Source: a virus
Strand: one strand, 5' to 3'
Virus record (IMG/VR): IMGVR_UViG_3300013285_000056
Location: 1-28,606 of that record
Length of the DNA stretch: 28,606 bases
How positions within the stretch are numbered: position 1 is the first letter of the stretch; the number at the start of each line of letters is the position of its first letter. Of this stretch, positions 1 through 15,998 are shown in pieces. The position numbers and the translations under genes were made by a program. The notes below the pieces were generated by a model. It ran no database searches and had not been told where the DNA came from. It worked only from the letters and a program-made list of their open reading frames with translations.

Positions 1-1979
1 AGTTTTGCACTCTTATCTACACCAACTGAAGCATTTAAGAATACGCCATCTACGATTTCGGTATTTGCAGTAGCACGGATGCTGCCAACAGTTTTGAAAT
101 CTTTACTCTGTGTAACACGAGTTTCAACCCCAAAGTTATTATCAAAATCATATCTCAATCCAACATATGGATTGAAAGAAGTAGTTGATTTTTCTGTTGG
201 GACAGTTGAAAGGAATGGGCTACCGGTTTCACTCATACCACCGAGTGAACTGCTTACTATAGTTGCACCTACTAATGGTCTAATATCAAAGTATGTATCT
301 GCACTATATATAGTTACATCCCCATATATGTTCTTTTGATTAAACTTAGCAGTATTTGATAATGCAAAGATTGGAAGAGTAGTAGTACCATTGTATTTGC
401 TATAGCCAAGTCCTACAGCAGTCTTTACCCAAAGAATTGAATCTTTAATCAAAGCGTAAGCAGTAGAATCAAAGCTATCATTCTCAACCTTACTGAAGTC
501 TAACCTTCCACTTTTAGCATTAGTGTAACTAACAGCAACACCAAAAGTATTGTTATCTACAGTCCATTGGTATCCAGCACCGGATCCGCCACTTGACATA
601 CTACTTGAGGTCTTGTAATAGCTGGCAGTTGGACTTACCCACGCACCATCTTTTTTACTAAGTGGATCAATTAGGAAGACGTTAAATGTTCTCAACTTAA
701 CAGCATTTACAAACCCAGTGTTATTGAAACTTACACTATTTGATGTTGTGCTACCTAGACGCTGCTCGTTTGGTCTACCGGTATCTTCATTATACAGTGT
801 GCCGTTAGTCTTAACAACTGTGCTATCACTCATATCTTGATTAGTAACAGGAGTAACAGAAACTCTGCTGATAACTGCTCTTACATCATACTTGTCAATT
901 GTGCGAGTAACAACACCTATTTTATCAGTATTGGTTTTTACATCAGTTTGAACAGTGACAAATGGGGTCCATCCACCGTATACAAAGAATGGAGCTCCTC
1001 TAACATATGTTAGATATGGAACGCCCACAGGAGTTGGACCAGTAGGTGGAGTTACACCTCCCATAGTGCAACCGGTAGTGCAACCTGGAACAACACCCCG
1101 AGTTCCGCCGCCTGCACCTGAAGTAACAGCAGTAGTCCCAGCGTCTAGTGTGCTTGGTCCAAAGATATAAGCGTATTCAAATGTTGCTGAAGCACCAGCA
1201 GCAAGTGTTGGCAGATAAAACCCAAGACCAATAGTATAATCACCATTTCCGCCATTTGTTCCATTGTAATAGTTTACTGGATCTGTAGTCCAGCTACTAC
1301 TAATACCTGCACCTGAGTTAGCAGCAGCAGTATAAAGACCTAATGCATACTTACTAACTAGTGCTTCACTGAATACAACATTCTTAGCACCAATTGGGCT
1401 GAATCCTAATGTATTATTAGTTGCATTACTATCACCAGTAGCTGCTCTTGCATCCGGATCTGTGTATCTTCCAAAATATAAGTTAGTCATATTAACACTT
1501 GTAGTAAGTGTTGTTTTAATGTTTACTACTTTATCTGGATTATTGAATCCAACATCATTCTTTACAGTAAAATCAGTAGTAGATCCAGTCCAAACAGCAC
1601 GATTATCATATGTAATACCAGCATAAGCAACGCCATTATAACTGGTTAGCAAACCTCCAGTAATCTGAGGTCCGGTATACATAGCATTGTTGTTCATCTT
1701 ACTAATAGTAACACCAGCATCGTTGGTATATTTAACAGTGAATCCTTCAAATGGACTGCCTGGAGTTAAGTAATCGTATGCTGGGTTGAAAGTTCTAGTT
1801 CCGGTATTATCATATTGAATACCCGGGAGAGTGTTACCGTTTGAACCAATAGTTCCAACATTATTAACACCAATCTTGACAAAATCACCTTGTAATATTA
1901 GTGGAATTGTTGATACAGTTTGCGAATATGCAGAGGACACAAATAGAATCCCAGCTGCTGCTAATAGATTTCTAATCAC
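1..1979 (-). CDS. Secreted beta-rich outer-membrane/autotransporter-like protein, 3' part outside window
   Basis: An open frame of about 659 codons runs from a GTG at 1979 off the left edge of the window. The GTG is the only plausible start: an in-frame stop lies seven codons upstream, and GGAG sits about seven bases before it. The product begins MIRNLLAAAGILFVSSAYSQ, a typical Sec signal peptide with probable cleavage after AYS. The rest is rich in Thr, Ser, Asn and Gly. After a long N-terminal part there is a Gly/Pro-rich linker (about residues 285-315) with a CTTGC pair. The last 200 visible residues show alternating hydrophobic/polar strands such as FNPYVGLRYDFDNNFGVETR, as in the translocator barrel of autotransporters or other outer-membrane barrels. 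A late-type box lies at 2045-2051 and a perfect TATAAT at 2020-2025. I recognise no specific family. The barrel assignment is inference from strand pattern. It could also be a virion adhesin. Confidence 0.72.
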   Translation of the reverse strand, partial: MIRNLLAAAGILFVSSAYSQTVSTIPLILQGDFVKIGVNNVGTIGSNGNTLPGIQYDNTGTRTFNPAYDYLTPGSPFEGFTVKYTNDAGVTISKMNNNAMYTGPQITGGLLTSYNGVAYAGITYDNRAVWTGSTTDFTVKNDVGFNNPDKVVNIKTTLTTSVNMTNLYFGRYTDPDARAATGDSNATNNTLGFSPIGAKNVVFSEALVSKYALGLYTAAANSGAGISSSWTTDPVNYYNGTNGGNGDYTIGLGFYLPTLAAGASATFEYAYIFGPSTLDAGTTAVTSGAGGGTRGVVPGCTTGCTMGGVTPPTGPTPVGVPYLTYVRGAPFFVYGGWTPFVTVQTDVKTNTDKIGVVTRTIDKYDVRAVISRVSVTPVTNQDMSDSTVVKTNGTLYNEDTGRPNEQRLGSTTSNSVSFNNTGFVNAVKLRTFNVFLIDPLSKKDGAWVSPTASYYKTSSSMSSGGSGAGYQWTVDNNTFGVAVSYTNAKSGRLDFSKVENDSFDSTAYALIKDSILWVKTAVGLGYSKYNGTTTLPIFALSNTAKFNQKNIYGDVTIYSADTYFDIRPLVGATIVSSSLGGMSETGSPFLSTVPTEKSTTSFNPYVGLRYDFDNNFGVETRVTQSKDFKTVGSIRATANTEIVDGVFLNASVGVDKSAK

Positions 1980-2044: not shown

Positions 2045-2051
2045 TATTTAT
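2045..2051 (-). promoter_or_regulatory. T4-type late promoter box (ATAAATA)
   Basis: On the minus strand the sequence reads TAATAAATAC, matching seven of eight positions of the T4 late consensus TATAAATA. It overlaps the stop codon of the DpdA-like gene and lies about 65 bases upstream of the GTG of the secreted protein, so a leader of about 60 bases is expected. T4 late boxes are read by host RNA polymerase carrying gp55, with gp33 and the gp45 clamp. Confidence 0.5.
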
Positions 2052-3502
2052 TACTCAAACAGTACATTAAACTGCGTACTTGCATTCACAGTTTTCTTAC
2101 CGGTATATCCACGCTGCCCTACGATGCTGATCCAGAACTTACTGTGTTCCTCAATGAGATCCAAACTTTTTTGATTAACTGCATTGGCGACAATCTCATC
2201 AACAATGTTACGAAATTTAGTAATAGTATGTGTCTCACGGATCAACATGCCTGGACTTAATCCCAGGTCATACTGTTCATTTGCTGTTAATACTGCATTG
2301 ATATGCATCCAAACATTATGGGCCATCTGCAGAGCATAGCTAAAGCTATCCCACGATGTCTTACCTTCTTTACCAATCATATTAAGAGCACCAGGAGCAT
2401 ATGTGCAAACATCGTTAACCTGCAGATGCTTGCTAATATGACTGTCCATAAAGTTTTTAATGATCAGATCATCTCTTGCAACATCGCCATATAGTCTAGT
2501 ATCAGTAGCGTATTTCTTATTGTCAATGCCTGCTTCCATACTATAAGTCCACTTGCCGCCATCTTCCATCCTTAGCTGATCATACACAAGTCCTTTAGCA
2601 TTAGCAAGGAATGGACTTGCACAGTCAAAGCTAATAGTAAAGTCTTCATTATGATGCTTACGAACAGCACGTTGTAAATCAGTTAGTAAACAAGCCCACT
2701 CGAGCTTACTAGTTCCTAAGAAGTGCATCCAATCATGTGTGCCTTTTTCAAGTAGACCATCACGAATCATCTGCACTATACGACGCAGCACAAGATGAAT
2801 ATCACACATATTCTGCCCACCCATGGCCCAACCATTAAAGTGTGTGCCAGGATATAGTTTAGGATCGCAGAAGTCCTTCATCTGCTCATACCAATCATCC
2901 GCTTCAGTATGGTTCTCGCCCTGTAGCACATTAAGGAACTTGCAACGACCTGTGCGATGCTTCATCCAATATTCGTTATTGATACGTGTGCCTTTTACAG
3001 CTTCCGCATAAGTGCTAATGCCAGTGGCACGAGCACCAGCAGGGCTACGAGCAACCCAAGCGGGTATATCAAGAACCATACCGTAATCCATATAAGCATC
3101 CATCCAACGCAAAACACCATCACGCTTAGAATGCGCACGAGGGCAATTAGGATCTCGCCAATCGCCTTCCCAAACTCCCTTACCAATTTGGAATCCACCT
3201 GAATCTCCTAGTACAAAGCTGCTGGGGTCTCTTAATCGGACCATTTCTTCTTTTTCTTCAGGACGTACATCTAGAATAGCATGTCCTGCAGAATAAAGAC
3301 ACCACGGATAATAAAAGTAGCTGTCTTTTGGATCTAAAAAGTTAAGTCCTGCAATACCATTTTGCATCGAAGATGGTATGCGACTGGCTTGTATTTTCTT
3401 ACCATACTTACAGATTTGAAAACTGTAAAAGCTACTTAGTGCTGGCAAAAACACTGCTTGATCTGACTTGCGGCGCAATGCCATATTATCCTGTGGTATC
3501 AT
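2051..3502 (-). CDS. DpdA-like DNA guanine transglycosylase (TGT superfamily)
   Basis: A 483-residue protein of the tRNA-guanine transglycosylase superfamily. In order it has GDSGGFQ at 99-105 (the TGT Asp-Ser-Gly-Gly-Phe-Gln base-binding motif), VLDIPAW around Asp145, NVLQG at 191-195, GWAMGG at 224-229 (bacterial GLAVGE), FLGTS at 261-265, and FDCASPF with Asp293 aligned to the catalytic nucleophile of FDCVLPT. The usual CxCx2C zinc site is not visible: only Cys366 remains near the expected place, with His395 in MAHNVWMH. Known phage members (DpdA) swap guanine in DNA for 7-deazaguanines such as preQ0, which blocks host restriction; cellular members act on tRNA. Choosing DNA over tRNA is inference. 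Start: the frame is open to 3571, but ATG 3502 has AAGGA five bases before it and avoids overlap with the next gene. No preQ0 synthesis gene is in the window. Confidence 0.82.
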   Translation of the reverse strand: MIPQDNMALRRKSDQAVFLPALSSFYSFQICKYGKKIQASRIPSSMQNGIAGLNFLDPKDSYFYYPWCLYSAGHAILDVRPEEKEEMVRLRDPSSFVLGDSGGFQIGKGVWEGDWRDPNCPRAHSKRDGVLRWMDAYMDYGMVLDIPAWVARSPAGARATGISTYAEAVKGTRINNEYWMKHRTGRCKFLNVLQGENHTEADDWYEQMKDFCDPKLYPGTHFNGWAMGGQNMCDIHLVLRRIVQMIRDGLLEKGTHDWMHFLGTSKLEWACLLTDLQRAVRKHHNEDFTISFDCASPFLANAKGLVYDQLRMEDGGKWTYSMEAGIDNKKYATDTRLYGDVARDDLIIKNFMDSHISKHLQVNDVCTYAPGALNMIGKEGKTSWDSFSYALQMAHNVWMHINAVLTANEQYDLGLSPGMLIRETHTITKFRNIVDEIVANAVNQKSLDLIEEHSKFWISIVGQRGYTGKKTVNASTQFNVLFE

Positions 3503-3510
3503 TTTGTTCC

Positions 3511-3864
3511 TTACAAAAATTTCTGAACTAATATAATTGAGCTTAACCAAACCCATATAGAATGGAACCATATAAGTGTTGGAAGTCCTTTCTTTTGACT
3601 AACCCAAATTAGGAACATACTTGTACACAAATTTGGCCAAAACAAGTAAAACGGACTGTAGTGAAAAATTAAACCTGACACTATTATAACAGATTTAGTT
3701 GCAAGACTTAAAAATTCAACAATGTTGACGAGGCTCCAATAAGGACGGGTTAACCATAAACCAACACACTCACCAACATTCTTAAATCCAATAACACTAA
3801 AAGCCAGTGTTACTATTACTGCTGCAATGCAGCTACCTATGAGTATACTATTCAATAATTCCAT
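3511..3864 (-). CDS. Small multi-pass membrane protein, unknown
   Basis: A 117-residue hydrophobic protein with about three to four membrane segments: residues 5-27 (start ILIGSCIAAVIVTLAF), about 45-67 (VEFLSLATKSVIIVSGLIF), 70-88 and 95-115. The ATG at 3864 is preceded by a strong GAAGGAG ribosome site. It lies eight bases before the start of the DpdA-like gene and twelve bases after the DUF2061 gene, so the three probably share a transcript. I see no catalytic motif. It might affect the host envelope or superinfection, but nothing in the sequence decides this. Confidence 0.7.
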   Translation of the reverse strand: MELLNSILIGSCIAAVIVTLAFSVIGFKNVGECVGLWLTRPYWSLVNIVEFLSLATKSVIIVSGLIFHYSPFYLFWPNLCTSMFLIWVSQKKGLPTLIWFHSIWVWLSSIILVQKFL

Positions 3865-3876
3865 TTTTTCTCCTTC

Positions 3877-4077
3877 TCATATTTTGCCCCAATTAATTTT
3901 GAGCCAAATTCTTTCGTGAATGTAATAATCAATACTTAGAAGAATATGCAAGGCTGTTGCAAATCCAGTGGCATTGGCAATATCACCTGTGAACAAGTAT
4001 GTCCACAGGATGGTGAAAAACCACGCTGTAATGCGATAAGTCACCATCCTTACTATTGTTCTTTTCTTAGTTTCCAT
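3877..4077 (-). CDS. DUF2061-like small membrane protein
   Basis: A 66-residue protein matching the DUF2061 pattern: basic N-terminus followed by VTYRITAWFFTILWTYLFTG, then IANATGFATALHILLSIDYYIHERIW. The pattern R(x)nYR...TxxWT..TGD....G.....l...yYxHERxW is characteristic, with two membrane segments (about 13-30 and 35-52) and the conserved YYIHERIW near the end. The function of DUF2061 is unknown in bacteria, where it is a short inner-membrane protein. The ATG overlaps the stop of the sliding-clamp gene as TAATG, so translation is likely coupled to gp45. Confidence 0.8.
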   Translation of the reverse strand: METKKRTIVRMVTYRITAWFFTILWTYLFTGDIANATGFATALHILLSIDYYIHERIWLKINWGKI

Positions 4078-4811
4078 TACTTGCTCTGTGCTGGGATGAT
4101 ATAACGATATTCAATCAATCCAGTATCAACTGTAATCTCAGCAGCACCTTCATCACTAAATCGCATGATCTTATCTCCATAAAGTCCTAGGATACCCAGC
4201 ACCCTAAGAATTGGCCAGTTCCATTCCTTTGTAAGCTTGCCTGTAATGCCACTGTGAAATACAAAGTTACCAGCATGTGTGCTATGATCGCCAAAGTAGA
4301 ACTTCAAATCTGTTCCATCTGTCTTAGCAATAAACTGAACTTCTTCACTATTAGCACCTGCTTGAAACTTAAAACGCTGTAGTGCATTCTGTGCTGGAGT
4401 GAACTCTACATCCCACTTAACTCCTCTAAACTTTGAAGTCTTAAGCTTCTCATTAATAACATTGACTGGCATGAAACGATAATCATTCTTGAAGTCGCCT
4501 AACTCATTCTCAAAGTGCAAACCACAAGGAATTTGATTACCTGTCTCATCAGCCTGAGTAATTAGATCAATCTTAGCTTTTTCCTTGTATTCTGGAATGT
4601 TCAAAATTGTGTTTAGCTTAACCAAGTTTGGCATACCAAATGTTCCTGCAAATGCTGCATTAGGTTGCTTAAACTTTGCCTTAATTACAACACTCTTATC
4701 GTCACTGATAGCTTCGATTGCTGTTGAATCCTTATCACCTTCAATCTTAATAAGATCAATACAGCCCAGTGCCTGTGTGTGCGAAACGATGTCTAATAGA
4801 AAATCTCTCAT
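4077..4811 (-). CDS. 45: Sliding clamp, DNA polymerase processivity factor (T4 gp45-like)
   Basis: A 244-residue protein, close to the 228 of T4 gp45. The N-terminal half (about 1-115) is the PCNA-like N domain ending in the conserved stretch FKNDYRFMPVNVINEKL; the C domain starts at VKWDVEFTPAQNALQRF and runs to LIEYRYIIPAQSK. The protein forms a trimeric ring that tethers the polymerase to DNA, and in T4 it also activates late transcription. The ATG has AAGGA about nine bases upstream. A sigma70-like promoter (4841-4869) lies directly before it, so it can be expressed independently of the polymerase and methyltransferase genes upstream. The downstream DUF2061 gene overlaps its stop. Identification rests on recognisable gp45 sequence and the position near gp43. 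Confidence 0.9.
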   Translation of the reverse strand: MRDFLLDIVSHTQALGCIDLIKIEGDKDSTAIEAISDDKSVVIKAKFKQPNAAFAGTFGMPNLVKLNTILNIPEYKEKAKIDLITQADETGNQIPCGLHFENELGDFKNDYRFMPVNVINEKLKTSKFRGVKWDVEFTPAQNALQRFKFQAGANSEEVQFIAKTDGTDLKFYFGDHSTHAGNFVFHSGITGKLTKEWNWPILRVLGILGLYGDKIMRFSDEGAAEITVDTGLIEYRYIIPAQSK

Positions 4812-4840: not shown

Positions 4841-4869
4841 ATTTTATACGAAAGGGTCTCTTCTGTCAA
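4841..4869 (-). promoter_or_regulatory. Sigma70-like early promoter for gp45
   Basis: The minus strand carries TTGACA (4864-4869), a 17-base spacer and TAAAAT (4841-4846), then about 30 bases to the gp45 ATG. The -35 box is perfect and the -10 matches five of six positions. It lies inside the 3' end of the methyltransferase gene, whose stop codon falls within the -10 box. Confidence 0.6.
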
Positions 4870-5704
4870 TAATTCTTGCAGAAGCACTTGACAGTTTAAA
4901 TGGAATTATGTCGCCAGCTTTTTTAACTAACATTGTTGATGCGTAGTTTGGTTCTAGATTCTTACTGACAATTTCATATCCAATGTTTTTAAAGAGTTCT
5001 TCAAGGCGTATGTGATCAATTGCAGTAAGTCGATATTGTTCAGTTAGTTTCAACCCCCAAACTGTATCTACTGGGATGAAGTTAAAAATAAAGTATCCAC
5101 CAGGACGTAATACTTTATGAACTTCTTTTGCCCATGACAGAATAAAATCTATATTTCTAACAAAAAAATAATTATAGCAGAAGGCCACACCAAATTGTTC
5201 CTGTGGTAATTTTGATAAATCAAAATCTCTAACTACAGCTTTCATTAAACGTCTAGTAGAATAAAATGGGTTAAATCTACTTGCGGCATGTTCCAGCATT
5301 TCTTCATAATAGTCTACAATATATAAAGGTTCTCCTGCTACAGCCGCTTCAGTGAAAAACCCTTCCCCTGGAAATAATTCAAGTATAGGATAAGCAAAAT
5401 CAGTTAGTCCTTGAAGAGCACCAATTAACTTTTCTCTCTCATTATCTCTCATTTCAGTAATTTTATAGAAGTATTGAAAATCAATCAGCGTCATATTTTC
5501 AAATGACATCTTGCTACTCAATACATCATTCTTTCGATCAACACTAGCTACCTTGAATGATACTAATGCATTGGCATTCTGAGAGAAACTTTCTAGTGCT
5601 CGCACATTCAACTGTTCTAACTCAGCAGCAGGAAGCTTTGCCTGCATCTCTAGAATTAGATCATTGATAGAATTTACTATTTGTACAAGCTCAGATGTTT
5701 TCAT
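4844..5704 (-). CDS. Class I SAM-dependent methyltransferase
   Basis: A 286-residue protein with a Rossmann methyltransferase core. Motif I is ILELFPGEGF (107-116), an acidic residue after strand 2 is Asp131 (YIVDYYEEML), and the post-motif LRPGGYFIFNF lies at 199-209. About 100 helical residues precede the core. The variant E-L-F-P-G-E-G in place of the usual GxGxG suits small-molecule or protein methyltransferases of the Methyltransf_11/25 type; no DPPY-like DNA-methylase motif is seen. The substrate is unknown. The ATG overlaps the polymerase stop as ATGA, so it should be translationally coupled to gp43. Its place between gp43 and gp45 is not one I know from T4. Confidence 0.75.
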   Translation of the reverse strand: MKTSELVQIVNSINDLILEMQAKLPAAELEQLNVRALESFSQNANALVSFKVASVDRKNDVLSSKMSFENMTLIDFQYFYKITEMRDNEREKLIGALQGLTDFAYPILELFPGEGFFTEAAVAGEPLYIVDYYEEMLEHAASRFNPFYSTRRLMKAVVRDFDLSKLPQEQFGVAFCYNYFFVRNIDFILSWAKEVHKVLRPGGYFIFNFIPVDTVWGLKLTEQYRLTAIDHIRLEELFKNIGYEIVSKNLEPNYASTMLVKKAGDIIPFKLSSASARIIDRRDPFV

Positions 5705-8355
5705 CAGAAACTAAACAAACTTTCATAAGTTGACGATATGTTAGTGCTATTTTCAAGATCCCAATCCAACACACCCAGTAGATTCTCTACCTTCTGTGTA
5801 ATGATGCCTTCCTGCATTGCTTCACTATCAAATGGCATATCTTTAAACCACTGAGGCAAACGCTGCTCATCAGTAGGATAAGCAATGCTTGTTAAACCAA
5901 GCGGATTAGCTCGTAACTTACAAACAATTGCCTTCATACCATCGGTAACTTTCATGCTGCGATTATCACTATGCATACGAAGCATATTGTTCCAGTTGAT
6001 AGCAGCTCGAACATGTCCTGGCATATTGGCACGACCTTGTTTAGTTTCAAGATCACCATAATAGGTCAGCTTGTTAACACGTTTTGGTGTGCCTTTCTCC
6101 CATGCTGGTCTTGCACGAAATACTTCTTTAAACTCTTTAATCTTATCAATGACATCTAATCTAGTACCATCTTCCAGCACAAGATTTAGAATCTCACTGA
6201 GGAATTCTTGAACTACCTTAGGAGTATCACTGCGTTTAAGGTCAAGTCCCATAGCTTTTACTTTACCACTTTTGCCTTCACGATCTAGTCGCTTACCTTC
6301 TAGATCGTAAATTAAGGCAGCATAACGCTTTTTTGTGATAAACAAACTCTTACTTGCTACTAGTTCTCGACCGCCTTTGATAATCTTCCCATTCTCCAAT
6401 GGAACATGAAATGCCTGCTCCATAAATGAAGGAAAGCTGATATTAACTTGATCTGCAATTTGATCATAGAGATTAACGCAGATATCCTTGTCCCATTGCA
6501 TACGTCCTGCTGCAACATCTTCCTTAATTACAGGCCATGCACTGAAATAAACAGAGTCAGTATCACCGTAAATGATACACTTACCAATATAATCATACGT
6601 GCCTGTTAGACATTCATTAACAGTTGCATCCATATGACGTGCAATAACACGACCACTCAGCGTAGTTGATTGTCCAATACGTCTGTCAAAGAATCTACAG
6701 CCTGGATTCAAAATAGCTCCATACAAGCTATTTAGATTAATCTTCTTAACAAGCTGTCTTTTATCCCAAAAGGCTGCTTCTTTTACATCCTTAGCTTCCT
6801 TCTTTTTAGCCTGTAGCTCCTGTCTTTCCTTGTACCATCGTTCAAGCAACCCCGGGACAACACCCTGTTTGTCCAACGTGAATAGTGTACCGTTGGCTGA
6901 CAAACTCCATGTTTGGTTCGAATCAAAGACCATCCGGTGGACTTCTGCTGCACTATACGTTTCACTATTGCCATCCTCCCAATCGATAGTAATCTCTGTG
7001 CCTATCTCCTTGTTCATAACTGCGGTATATTCAATTGTTCCAAACATACCTTCCCATGCATCAGCAAACGTGTTTTTATTAGCCATTTTATTTGCAATAT
7101 AAGCATCAGTCATTACTGGACGTAACTGTCCAATAATAGTTTCAACACTCATATTCAATGCACGAATTGCCGAAGGATACAGTGAATTAATATCAATTGC
7201 ACCAATCCATTCATGTATGCCCTTCTTAGGATAAGCAACATAAGCACCTGCTGCTTGATTATCGTCACTATATCCGTTACGACTAGGAACAACAAGTCCT
7301 CGAGCATGAGCTTCATTGATAATAGCTTGTTCAGTAACAGCAACAGCACCCATTGTTGTCTGTAGCAACACAGTATTAGCATGAGCAAGTTCGTTAGCAA
7401 GTTCGATAAACCGAAGTTTCTTATCAAGCTTATCAAGCAATGCAGTATCCTGCCTGTTATACTCTAGAAACTTTTTAAAGTCATCATTGTATAACTGATC
7501 GAGACTTCCTTCATATGGAATCTTACGATCATTTAGCTCATACTCACCAATTGCATCCAGTGCATAGCTATGACGTTCCTCGTAGGTATACTTACGATAG
7601 AGATTCATATAGTCCATATGAACACGCCCAATGAGATCATATGTTTGACGCTCCAGCCCAAACTTCTCATAAGTGCGATTTTTAGGCATTTGATTCCACA
7701 GGCAATATCGACGTGTGTCGTCCTTGCTGAGGATTCTTGCAGTTCGATTGATCATATAGGGAATATCAAAACCCTCACTGTTCCATCCACTGAGAATATC
7801 AGCATCCTCAATAAGATCCATAAAAGTCTTTAGTAGTTCAGCTTCTTCCTCAAACAAGTAACAGTTGGGAATACTATCACAGATTGCTTTTGCATTTTCC
7901 TGTGACATATTAGGCGGAGCAATGCACAGCGTAACCAATTGATCTAGCCAATTAAGAAACACTGTGACTGCTGTTACTTTAGTAAATGGATCTTCGGGAC
8001 TGCTGTATCCACGGACCTTATCAAAGTCCGTCTCAATATCAAAAAATGCCACATTAAGTTCTGGAGCATCTTGACCCAAATAGTTTTCAGCTAAACATCG
8101 AAAGATTGGGTTGACATCGCTTTCGTATAATGTCATTCCTTTAAAAGCAGCCATCTCTTTACGGAAGTCCTTGCTGCTTCTAGTGCTTACACGATTACAA
8201 GAATCTCCAAACACTGATCTAAACTTCCCACGTGGATCGGGATAATAAAAAACATAGTTTGGGGGATAATCGTGATAAACTCTCTTCCCATCTTGACGCT
8301 CCACGACGTGGATGCGTTCCTTCTCTCGGTCTAATATTGCATCGACATAAGCCAT
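5704..8355 (-). CDS. 43: DNA polymerase, family B (T4 gp43-like)
   Basis: An 883-residue replicative polymerase, close to T4 gp43 (898). The 3'-5' exonuclease is intact: Exo I FFDIETDFD with Asp106 and Glu108, Exo II GWNSEGFDIPYMINR near 190-204 and Exo III YNRQDTALLDKL near 299-310. Polymerase motif A is DINSLYPSAI (388-397), motif B KKINLNSLYGAI (537-548) and motif C YGDTDSVYF (596-604) with the two catalytic Asp. The C-terminus ends in SLFSF, resembling the clamp-binding tail of T4 gp43. It replicates phage DNA with gp45 and the gp44 complex. The ATG at 8355 has AAGGA about nine bases upstream; a hairpin lies 48-81 bases before the start. Confidence 0.97.
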   Translation of the reverse strand: MAYVDAILDREKERIHVVERQDGKRVYHDYPPNYVFYYPDPRGKFRSVFGDSCNRVSTRSSKDFRKEMAAFKGMTLYESDVNPIFRCLAENYLGQDAPELNVAFFDIETDFDKVRGYSSPEDPFTKVTAVTVFLNWLDQLVTLCIAPPNMSQENAKAICDSIPNCYLFEEEAELLKTFMDLIEDADILSGWNSEGFDIPYMINRTARILSKDDTRRYCLWNQMPKNRTYEKFGLERQTYDLIGRVHMDYMNLYRKYTYEERHSYALDAIGEYELNDRKIPYEGSLDQLYNDDFKKFLEYNRQDTALLDKLDKKLRFIELANELAHANTVLLQTTMGAVAVTEQAIINEAHARGLVVPSRNGYSDDNQAAGAYVAYPKKGIHEWIGAIDINSLYPSAIRALNMSVETIIGQLRPVMTDAYIANKMANKNTFADAWEGMFGTIEYTAVMNKEIGTEITIDWEDGNSETYSAAEVHRMVFDSNQTWSLSANGTLFTLDKQGVVPGLLERWYKERQELQAKKKEAKDVKEAAFWDKRQLVKKINLNSLYGAILNPGCRFFDRRIGQSTTLSGRVIARHMDATVNECLTGTYDYIGKCIIYGDTDSVYFSAWPVIKEDVAAGRMQWDKDICVNLYDQIADQVNISFPSFMEQAFHVPLENGKIIKGGRELVASKSLFITKKRYAALIYDLEGKRLDREGKSGKVKAMGLDLKRSDTPKVVQEFLSEILNLVLEDGTRLDVIDKIKEFKEVFRARPAWEKGTPKRVNKLTYYGDLETKQGRANMPGHVRAAINWNNMLRMHSDNRSMKVTDGMKAIVCKLRANPLGLTSIAYPTDEQRLPQWFKDMPFDSEAMQEGIITQKVENLLGVLDWDLENSTNISSTYESLFSF

Positions 8356-13133: not shown

Positions 13134-15998
13134 TCATTTTACAACTCCTGACTTAGCAATACTCGTAAGTATTTGTGCTACTTGAGGAAATGCCGAGTCG
13201 TCGTATTTGATGCCGATACCACCTGCTGCACGCCATTTACTAATATTAACACCATAATCATCAACCAATATATTAGGAGCACCATCTTCCAATGCACGGT
13301 CTGCTTTGCTATGTGTTAATACTATTTCGACAGGAGGCATATCTGAGAAATGTTTTTTAATCCAAGCTATTTTACCTGGCTTACTGCGTTCGTCACCTGC
13401 TAGTGGTGTTGAACAAATTCTATATTCGCCATAATTTTCAATTACTGTTTTAACTAATGATCTTGCATTAGGTAGCATAGGTAAGTCAATCCAAAATGTT
13501 GGCTGATCTCTTACTAATTGTAAAGATTCTTCAGCATTATTGATATCTTTATAATGATCAACACCAGCTAATCTCGACCATTCACTAAAGAAGTCAGCGA
13601 GCACTCCATCCATGTCTAGATAGACACGAGGCTTTGTACTTTCATCTGTTGCATCCTCGTAAATTGAATAGCGTCTTTTCAACCCTTGAACTTTAAATCC
13701 TGCCATTCTTCCAGCGAGCAGTCTTGGATGAACAGTTTTAATCATATAAATTGTATTACCTGCAGAATCTTCATTTTTTGCTAATGCAATACCAAAACCA
13801 TTCTTAGGTTCTCTTGGAGGACCATTTTCACCTTTGAGTACAAAATCTGTGTTATTTAAGTTATTAATATCTTTACCATGTTGTCTAACTGCTTTTTCAA
13901 TAATCTCATAAATTTCCTCAATATCAACACTACGCTCGCCTTTTCTATCAAGACGCTCGATAGCATGATGTGAGATGAAGACTGGCGCACCCATGATGTC
14001 AATGCCTTCTAATTCCTCACCTCTGCTATAGTCAGTTGTTTCGTTTAAACTTTCATCTAATTCATAAAATTTACTGTCGATTTCCTTTTTTAGATCGGCA
14101 ATAGCTTCATCCTCGCTGCGGCCTTTGGCAATTAATGTCTTTAACGCACCGTCAATGATAGTTTTTGGCTTCTTAGGCTTCTTTGCTTCATTAACTCCAC
14201 GCTTATACATAGAGATACTACTAAGTGGAATAACACCGTGATACTCCAAAGTATTACCTTCGTTATCTTGGACATTTTGATCCATCTTTAATAGTGAAGG
14301 ATTTAAACCAGCAGTTGCGATTTTCAATATGACAATATCATCTAGCCATTCGTCTGGAACAGTTTCGCTTGCTTCAGCATAACTTTCCGCAACATTTGGA
14401 TCAGTAGCAAGATATACTACGCCATGTATGCTGTCTTCCCAACGCTTACGCTCACTACCTTTACCGCCTAAACCTGTCTTTTTAATAGAACGCAATAGCG
14501 CACGATATGTGGCATGATATAATACAGGAGGAATGTTTGTTTCTTCTATTTCTTCGTTGGCTCGCTTCTTGCCGCGACGCATGTTCAGCTGCCAACGTGC
14601 TAATTGTCCTTTACGACCTTCAGCATGACTGGCTTTTTCTAGTTCTGCCACTGTGGCTTTCTTAGGGATACCATGACGCTGACTGTCTCCAGGACGACCT
14701 GGCCCTTTTCCATCAGCGAAATTTTCACCTATCTTTTTTTTTAGATCATCAGTATGTTGAGCAAATCTGCCATCGCTAAATCCACCTTGGCCCAATGCAC
14801 TCTTCATATAGCTGCCTAGGAAGTCTGCTTTTGATTGATCATTAGGTCGAGCATTCATACGATCCATTGCTGCTGATACTGGCTCACCTGGAACAGCTAC
14901 AGCGTCGTCATCTTCTTCCTCAACCTTAGCAAGTCTGGTATAGTAATCTAACTTCTCGCCAATATGATCCATTGCTATTTCAGTGGCAACTTCGATATCA
15001 TTTGTATGTTCAAATTCTATTTTAACGCCGCGATTAATTTGACGATGAACTTCTTCTGGTGTAATTATGTATCTCTTGGCAAGTTCTCTTACGCTAGGTG
15101 TGCGTTTATTAAGTTCTTCGCTTTCGTCAGTTGCTCCTCTGCCAATGCCAATGGCAGTACTTGCCGCTGTTGCAGCAGCTTTTCCAGGAATTAAATTAGT
15201 TGCAAGTTGAGCAGCAGGTAGTAGAGCTTTGCCATACTCTCCCTTGTTGATAGCAGAACCAATCTTGCCTATATCTCCTATGGGAGTATAATTTTTAAGA
15301 GCATTTGATATAGGTGTATCTTTTTGATTTTCTGGACGCATCATGAATGCACGGTGTTCATCTTCATCAGCATCTTCATTGATACTTTCCAACTGCATAC
15401 CTTTACGTACTAACGGAAACAACTGTTTTTCAACAGCAGTTAATAATTTAAGATTAGTAACTTTTCCACCTAATGTGTTACGAGCAAATGATTCTGGATC
15501 ATTATTAACAATACTCTCACGAGACTTTGTAGCACTAGTAAGACGAGGGCTAATAGCAAAGTCTAGTTTCTCAAAGTAGAAACCTTTACCCATCTTAACA
15601 GATTCTGGATTATTACGTCCATGTTCGTTGCCACTTTTAATCATTGTGGCATATGATTCCATATCATCCTCGCCAGCAACAAATGTAGCTTGTCTAAATC
15701 CCTGCTTGTACAACCATGTTGCAGCAATCAGTGGAGTTTTAATTGAAGCATCCTCAACTAAATGTCCTGTTGTTTCAGGAAATAAAGCTTTCACCCAGTA
15801 ACACTTTTGATCGTATGTAAGTGGATTTTTTGCAGGCTCAACTTTACTGCTTAGAAATAGATACCAGTATGCAACTTCCTGTTTGGCAACTGTTTGTAGT
15901 GTCTTAATAACGCCGCCGTGACCATAATGAGGAGGGTTCATCCTGCCGAAGGTAAACACAACTTTCTTAATGGTTTGATCTATTTCATCTAAGCGCAT
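13134..15998 (-). CDS. Multidomain head-packaged-type polyprotein: nucleotidyltransferase, ART-like, BECR-like, HAD phosphatase
   Basis: A 954-residue protein with separate modules. Residues 10-200 are a cytidylyltransferase-like nucleotidyltransferase: GRMNPPHYGHG with HYGH at 24-27, and SATKSRESI at 155-163. Residues 300-360 resemble DUF5661 (ELAKRYIITPEEVHRQINRG ... FEHTNDIEVATEIAMDHIGE). Residues 493-600 look like an ADP-ribosyltransferase or KptA fold (LYHAT, then GVVYLATDPNVAESYA and EYHGVIPLSSI). Residues 670-760 resemble DUF4258/BECR nucleases (ISHHAIERLDRKGERSVDIE). Residues 790-954 are a HAD 5'(3')-deoxyribonucleotidase-like domain: LDMDGVLADFF (Asp795, Asp797), CSTPL (862-866), Lys898 and VDD (912-914). 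The N-terminus MRLDEIDQT resembles a capsid-targeting sequence. Prohead-protease-type sites lie in linkers: INE|D 206, IEE|T 484, LNE|T 651, IYE|D 779. T4 packages its ADP-ribosyltransferase Alt in a similar way. Nucleotidyltransferase and HAD calls are firm; the ART and BECR calls are tentative. Confidence 0.75.
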   Translation of the reverse strand: MRLDEIDQTIKKVVFTFGRMNPPHYGHGGVIKTLQTVAKQEVAYWYLFLSSKVEPAKNPLTYDQKCYWVKALFPETTGHLVEDASIKTPLIAATWLYKQGFRQATFVAGEDDMESYATMIKSGNEHGRNNPESVKMGKGFYFEKLDFAISPRLTSATKSRESIVNNDPESFARNTLGGKVTNLKLLTAVEKQLFPLVRKGMQLESINEDADEDEHRAFMMRPENQKDTPISNALKNYTPIGDIGKIGSAINKGEYGKALLPAAQLATNLIPGKAAATAASTAIGIGRGATDESEELNKRTPSVRELAKRYIITPEEVHRQINRGVKIEFEHTNDIEVATEIAMDHIGEKLDYYTRLAKVEEEDDDAVAVPGEPVSAAMDRMNARPNDQSKADFLGSYMKSALGQGGFSDGRFAQHTDDLKKKIGENFADGKGPGRPGDSQRHGIPKKATVAELEKASHAEGRKGQLARWQLNMRRGKKRANEEIEETNIPPVLYHATYRALLRSIKKTGLGGKGSERKRWEDSIHGVVYLATDPNVAESYAEASETVPDEWLDDIVILKIATAGLNPSLLKMDQNVQDNEGNTLEYHGVIPLSSISMYKRGVNEAKKPKKPKTIIDGALKTLIAKGRSEDEAIADLKKEIDSKFYELDESLNETTDYSRGEELEGIDIMGAPVFISHHAIERLDRKGERSVDIEEIYEIIEKAVRQHGKDINNLNNTDFVLKGENGPPREPKNGFGIALAKNEDSAGNTIYMIKTVHPRLLAGRMAGFKVQGLKRRYSIYEDATDESTKPRVYLDMDGVLADFFSEWSRLAGVDHYKDINNAEESLQLVRDQPTFWIDLPMLPNARSLVKTVIENYGEYRICSTPLAGDERSKPGKIAWIKKHFSDMPPVEIVLTHSKADRALEDGAPNILVDDYGVNISKWRAAGGIGIKYDDSAFPQVAQILTSIAKSGVVK

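Follow-up and report, generated by a model that had tools for sequence, protein, structure and literature searches.

The gene at positions 3502..2051 (minus strand, 483 aa) of the DNA analysed here most probably encodes a DpdA-type DNA guanine transglycosylase that inserts a 7-deazaguanine into phage DNA after replication. The analysed stretch, hereafter called the window, is a complete IMG/VR record of 28,606 bases; it covers part of the genome of a large phage that encodes a family B DNA polymerase (PolB). The original prediction, a DpdA-like enzyme for 7-deazaguanine modification of DNA, is supported by a tRNA-guanine transglycosylase (TGT) fold, by DpdA2 as the nearest profile, and by linkage to PolB, FolE and QueE genes. 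From this evidence we infer DNA as the substrate of the transglycosylase, the identity of the inserted base and a protective role of the enzyme.

The gene had been placed at 2051-3502, with a correct start and the strand left unstated; it lies on the minus strand. Its longest open reading frame spans 3571..2051 (506 aa, minus strand). Position 3502 is the better start because the ATG at this position is preceded by a ribosome-binding site (AAGGAAC) and because the homologues in loci L003 and L004, which are 86% identical to the window protein, begin with the same residues, MIPQDN. Residue numbers given below follow the 506-aa frame. All catalytic TGT motifs previously claimed for the protein were found, and LDIP in addition: DSGGFQ (D123), LDIP (D168), LQG (Q217), GWAMGG (G251/G252 in WAMGG) and FDCASPF (D316 in FDCAS, the nucleophile by analogy). 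Further positions are C389 in a DxC motif and H418-N419 in an HN motif. The five catalytic motifs (DSGG[FL]Q, D, Q-G, GG and the nucleophile D) are retained in 144 of 144 non-duplicate family members, among which LQG varies to LSG in phage PA5oct and to IQG in phage Phosso.

Matches to the family were found in 13 of 50,697 phage genome records, in all of which the protein is annotated as hypothetical. Eleven of them are Pseudomonas phages of the Wroclawvirus type, among them PA5oct and Paride, with 35% identity; the other two are Vibrio phage 2.275.O and Sinorhizobium phage Phosso, which, like Wroclawvirus, are distant isolate relatives. In IMG/VR the transglycosylase family occupies at least 599 loci of environmental phages. 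The sole matches among GTDB genome contigs came from four metagenome-assembled bins (L159, L160, L161 and L162; archaeal, Neomarinimicrobiota and Phycisphaerae), which probably contain phage contigs that were grouped with cellular ones.

Single-sequence and profile HMM searches of Pfam, PHROGs, NCBIfam, PADLOC and PDB sequences returned no match for the window protein. Likewise, a profile built from 17 family members had no relevant match among PDB sequences, and HMMER gave no link between the family and TGT or PDB sequences. The TGT profile PF01702 did not recognise the window protein over its cut-off; as it also misses the protein of phage 9g and those of other phages tested, it is unsuitable as a test for phage DpdA. 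The fold was assigned with an AlphaFold model of the transglycosylase (pLDDT 85, pTM 0.87; input, an alignment of 50 sequences). All 26 PDB matches obtained with Foldseek at E <0.001 were tRNA-guanine transglycosylases (top E 1e-6), and unrelated barrels first appeared at E 5e-3. In the VIA alignment all 50 rows shown were TGT (Z 17-18), in a list filled by one domain, such that families absent from it may still match. Matches among viral structures included DpdA2 of Vibrio phage nt-1 (E 3.7e-9) and the homologue of Vibrio phage 2.275.O, which was recognised by its length of 596 aa and not by name.

Sequence similarity of the family to proven DpdA proteins is weak. When DpdA and Tgt profiles were compared with hhalign, a check that had been proposed for the window gene, DpdA2 was nearest (probability 90-93, best E 2.5e-7, about 195 columns; no match by BLAST), as against a probability of only 16 for E. 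coli TGT, 4.8 for the DpdA of Flavobacterium phage immuto and 0.2 for DpdA1 of phage 9g. Nothing was found when the family profile was compared with phages CP220 and HVTV-1. We take CP220, HVTV-1 and immuto to represent DpdA3/DpdA4.

The window protein had been described as lacking the CxCx2C cluster of the tRNA TGT zinc site, and this cluster is indeed missing from all 147 family sequences. By inspection, DpdA2 proteins also lack it, and the DNA of phage nt-1 is modified nonetheless. Loss of the three cysteines is thus a property of the family rather than decay of a single gene. The expression 'eroded zinc site' holds for the family-wide loss of the Cys3 cluster but not as decay of the window gene alone, and parts of the site are retained. 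The HN motif with the fourth zinc ligand of TGT, H333 in the E. coli enzyme, is present in 143 of 144 members, and a regular expression detected the D-x-C motif upstream of it in 136 of 144. D387, C389 and H418 are candidate metal ligands.

Two rival explanations bear on the zinc site. The missing cluster, together with S in place of Q in the LQG motif of PA5oct, might point to an inactive or repurposed TGT-fold protein with a structural or regulatory role, zinc loss then being decay. This is highly improbable, given that the catalytic Asp and the other motifs are retained in 144 of 144 members from very divergent phages, that the precursor pathway adjoins the transglycosylase, and that DpdA2, equally devoid of the cluster, occurs in nt-1 with its modified DNA. 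Alternatively, the enzyme might modify tRNA of the host or the phage, raising its content of queuosine or archaeosine for better translation. It shares fold and catalytic residues with bacterial, archaeal and eukaryotic tRNA TGTs, and a tRNA role has been proposed for some phages with que genes but without DpdA (PMC6884629). However, the window family lacks the Cys3-His zinc site of those enzymes, with CxCx2C lost in 147 of 147 sequences, and has no significant HMM match to them; PF01702 fails to recognise the protein; the nearest profile is DpdA2 and not TGT; the gene is embedded with a DNA polymerase; and QueA, QueG and QueH were not found in the viruses analysed in PMC6884629. A tRNA-modifying role is therefore unlikely, and a DpdA-type enzyme acting on DNA is the preferred reading.

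The transglycosylase gene follows a conserved replication block. Directly upstream, at 4077..4811 (minus strand), lies a gene for a 244-aa protein of no known function (phrog_12062), which occupies this position in 109 of 109 loci with at least 5 kb visible upstream. By its position alone it might be a sliding clamp, an idea that no profile supported. The family B DNA polymerase (5704..8355, minus strand) belongs to the same block and is found upstream of the transglycosylase in most related loci. Between the polymerase and the phrog_12062 gene is a class I SAM methyltransferase gene (4844..5704, minus strand), which was rejected as a modification partner since no more than 27 of 141 related loci contain it; it is probably not core to the system. 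Farther upstream, a 954-aa multidomain protein (13134-15998, minus strand) combines a cytidylyltransferase-like N-terminus, DUF5661 and a 5'-deoxyribonucleotidase-like C-terminus. On the other side of the transglycosylase, the contig ends in a truncated surface-protein-like gene (1..1979, minus strand) with a signal peptide, a beta-barrel-like C-terminus and no Pfam match. A homologue of this gene in L003 (L003:13997-15922) sits inside a deazaguanine cluster, and therefore the cluster of the window phage probably continues past the contig end.

Homologues of FolE, QueD, QueE and QueC were searched for in the window and none was found, as the original prediction had stated. Since the contig stops 2 kb past the transglycosylase, their absence from the window says little. 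The search for precursor genes was extended to the 54 related loci in which 8 kb or more can be seen downstream; of these, 53 encode FolE, 45 QueE and none a recognisable QueC. In larger records the counts were 20/22 for FolE, 14/14 for QueE, and 8/22 and 6/11 for QueD. The closest informative relative, L004, carries FolE, QueD and QueE within 10 kb. Because these genes lie 5-10 kb downstream in the closest relatives, those of the window phage very probably lie beyond the contig end. Of the earlier proposal that the precursor comes from the host or from genes elsewhere, the part that stands is genes of the same phage past the contig end, as in relatives. Absence of que genes as a sign of host dependence was rejected: the contig stops 2 kb downstream, and relatives carry FolE and QueE in that region.

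QueC bears on the identity of the base. Among records with a family gene, an unambiguous QueC occurs only in Vibrio phage 2.275.O, where the transglycosylase homologue adjoins QueF, YhhQ, QueC and FolE; in the complete PA5oct genome FolE, QueD and QueE are present and QueC is absent. A 7-deazaguanine had been predicted in the form of preQ0 or a relative; the 7-deazaguanine is supported, but as most relatives have no recognisable QueC, preQ0 is a less likely identity than 7-carboxy-7-deazaguanine (CDG) or a base derived from it. QueC may also be supplied by the host, and some of the records have weak PP-loop matches that might represent divergent forms of QueC. The latter are matches of PF06508 near or below the cut-off to SGGxDS PP-loop proteins of 204-252 aa, encoded far from the transglycosylase. 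Such QueC-like proteins were seen in L082, L083, L176, L177, L178 and L179, and several adjoin radical SAM genes; for these reasons they are probably not QueC, and an unrelated modification pathway is possible.

Further, a set of genes downstream of the transglycosylase is conserved in the 54 loci. It comprises a 174-aa protein of unknown function (52/54), u150 (53/54), a 353-aa protein (54/54) and a phosphoribosyltransferase (46/54). The model of the 353-aa protein (pLDDT 91) has a GT-B fold, with glycogen synthase, BshA and MshA as top Foldseek matches, and PF00534 gave a sub-threshold match; it was assigned to the group 1 GT-B glycosyltransferases and is called GT below. The small protein u150 (phrog_17812, about 125-140 aa) shows invariant H, HxH, SCE and E in alignment. 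A QueD-like T-fold was considered for it, for which hhalign gave a probability of only 12. u150 occurs together with FolE, frequently also with QueD and QueE, in phages phiST, RHph_I1_18, Ahp1_CNU-2021, Bakedbeans and D479, and is a candidate for an enzyme acting on CDG. Genes for u150 near FolE were seen in phages of Cellulophaga, Rhizobium, Aeromonas and Vibrio (L221-L226).

These partners raise the question of hypermodification, which would extend the preferred reading: a CDG-derived 7-deazaguanine, perhaps processed by u150, would be inserted and then glycosylated by the GT-B enzyme. We regard this tentatively, at a little below an even chance. GT belongs to the cluster in all 54 loci, and its homologues occur in only 19-20 of 50,697 phage records, every one of which has a DpdA-type gene (assigned on a partial match in PhiXhv-15, PhiXhv-16 and Ep032). 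Transglycosylases of this kind occur in 0.17% of records, and for six GT lineages all to fall within that fraction a rough, post hoc independence estimate is about 1e-17, which shows no more than that chance does not explain the association. In Wroclawvirus the GT gene overlaps the transglycosylase gene, and in Phosso it lies with FolE and QueE although the transglycosylase is 170 kb away. GT stands beside DpdA2, together with u150, in ACP17 (QueD-FolE-u174-DpdA2-GT-u150-QueE, QueC being absent), X1 (GT-DpdA2-u150-QueE) and BUCT-ZZ01 (QueE-XGPRT-QueD-FolE-DpdA2-u150-GT). Homologues are also found in the PhiXhv phages and Ep032, and that of PhiXhv-12 adjoins Gat-QueC and a PIG-L deacetylase. 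GT was not found in the QueC-bearing deazaguanine phages KVP40, pf16, 9g, immuto, CP220 and HVTV-1. Synechococcus phage BUCT-ZZ01 carries a second group 1 glycosyltransferase-like gene (L222:3007-4350) directly upstream of DpdA2.

Against glycosylation of the base, phage glycosyltransferases can target host surface sugars or proteins, and CDG, 7-deazaguanine and G+ offer no obvious hydroxyl acceptor. Genes for a sugar epimerase and a nucleotidyltransferase lie upstream in many relatives and would also fit a surface pathway, which GT could serve instead. A surface role is made less likely by the co-occurrence of GT with deazaguanine genes in several phages that are not related to one another. 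The full proposal, in which a widespread group of large phages makes glycosylated 7-deazaguanine DNA through CDG formed without QueC, processing by u150, insertion next to the replication machinery by a DpdA-type enzyme lacking the zinc cluster and decoration by the GT-B enzyme, is held still more tentatively.

Among described systems, the experimentally linked relative is DpdA2 of Vibrio phage nt-1, the DNA of which contains dPreQ0 (PMC6884629). DpdA2 proteins (nt-1 YP_008125322, KVP40.0122, pf16 gp80 and ACP17 gp123) share with the window family a TGT core (DSGG[FL]Q, D, [LIA]QG, H[FM]LG, [SF][FY]D) without CxCx2C and a location next to FolE/QueE, and they are its best profile match (probability 93). 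In addition to the missing BLAST match, they differ in their length of 416-459 aa, in the lack of the N-terminal LYSAGHA region and in that HN at the zinc His is not conserved, whereas the window family keeps it; moreover, KVP40 and pf16 carry QueC. PA5oct was credited with a system for deazaguanine synthesis and incorporation by Iyer et al. 2021 (PMC7824862). Its protein EST35_0316 is a 35%-identical family member adjoined by PolB, QueE, the GT EST35_0317 and the u150 protein EST35_0318, but it is hypothetical in GenBank, and the available portion of PMC7824862 does not describe the subfamily, GT or a route without QueC. The TGT-like protein XYR92962 of Xanthomonas phage PhiXhv-12 is matched by the profile (probability 98, E 1e-13) and has a GT homologue in the same phage; it differs in its complete zinc motif (CTCPIC plus HN) and in the use of Gat-QueC. 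XYR92962 (L209:3635-5341) is annotated as hypothetical, and Gat-QueC, the PIG-L deacetylase and GT lie elsewhere in that genome. Finally, DpdA1 of Enterobacteria phage 9g (dG+) resembles the predicted window system in post-replicative 7-deazaguanine insertion and in a gene position beside polymerase and clamp genes, but has no detectable sequence match to the window family, and 9g possesses Gat-QueC and lacks GT.

In the mechanism proposed for the DpdA-type enzyme, the transglycosylase would bind newly replicated phage DNA, and D316 would act as the nucleophile that displaces guanine, following the covalent chemistry of TGT. The place of guanine would be taken by a 7-deazaguanine base that FolE, QueD and QueE of the phage produce, after u150 had perhaps acted on CDG, and GT would perhaps decorate the inserted base. 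The released guanine might be salvaged by the neighbouring phosphoribosyltransferase, and the modified genome would be protected from host nucleases.

The basic reading of the relatives of the window gene is not new, since the PA5oct system appears in Iyer et al. 2021 (PMC7824862). A subfamily distinct from DpdA1 and DpdA2 and the GT/u150 partner set were not found in the literature searched, which lacked Cui 2023 NAR. That article reportedly defined DpdA3, DpdA4 and the dCDG/dDG modifications; these, along with a named CDG decarboxylase to which u150 might correspond, are said to be treated there and in a 2024 review by de Crecy-Lagard. Part of the subfamily or module may already be described by Cui. 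The conserved GT in the gene set hints at a glycosylated guanine substitute undescribed in the literature searched.

The presence of 7-deazaguanine in DNA is an established means of evading restriction. The transglycosylase subfamily described here is represented in none of Pfam, PHROGs, NCBIfam and PADLOC and is annotated as hypothetical even in the therapy-relevant Pseudomonas jumbo phages PA5oct and Paride. Its gene set without QueC and with GT predicts a new guanine hypermodification in phages that are already in culture. If this prediction is true, glycosylated 7-deazaguanine would be the guanine counterpart of the glucosyl-hydroxymethylcytosine of T4.
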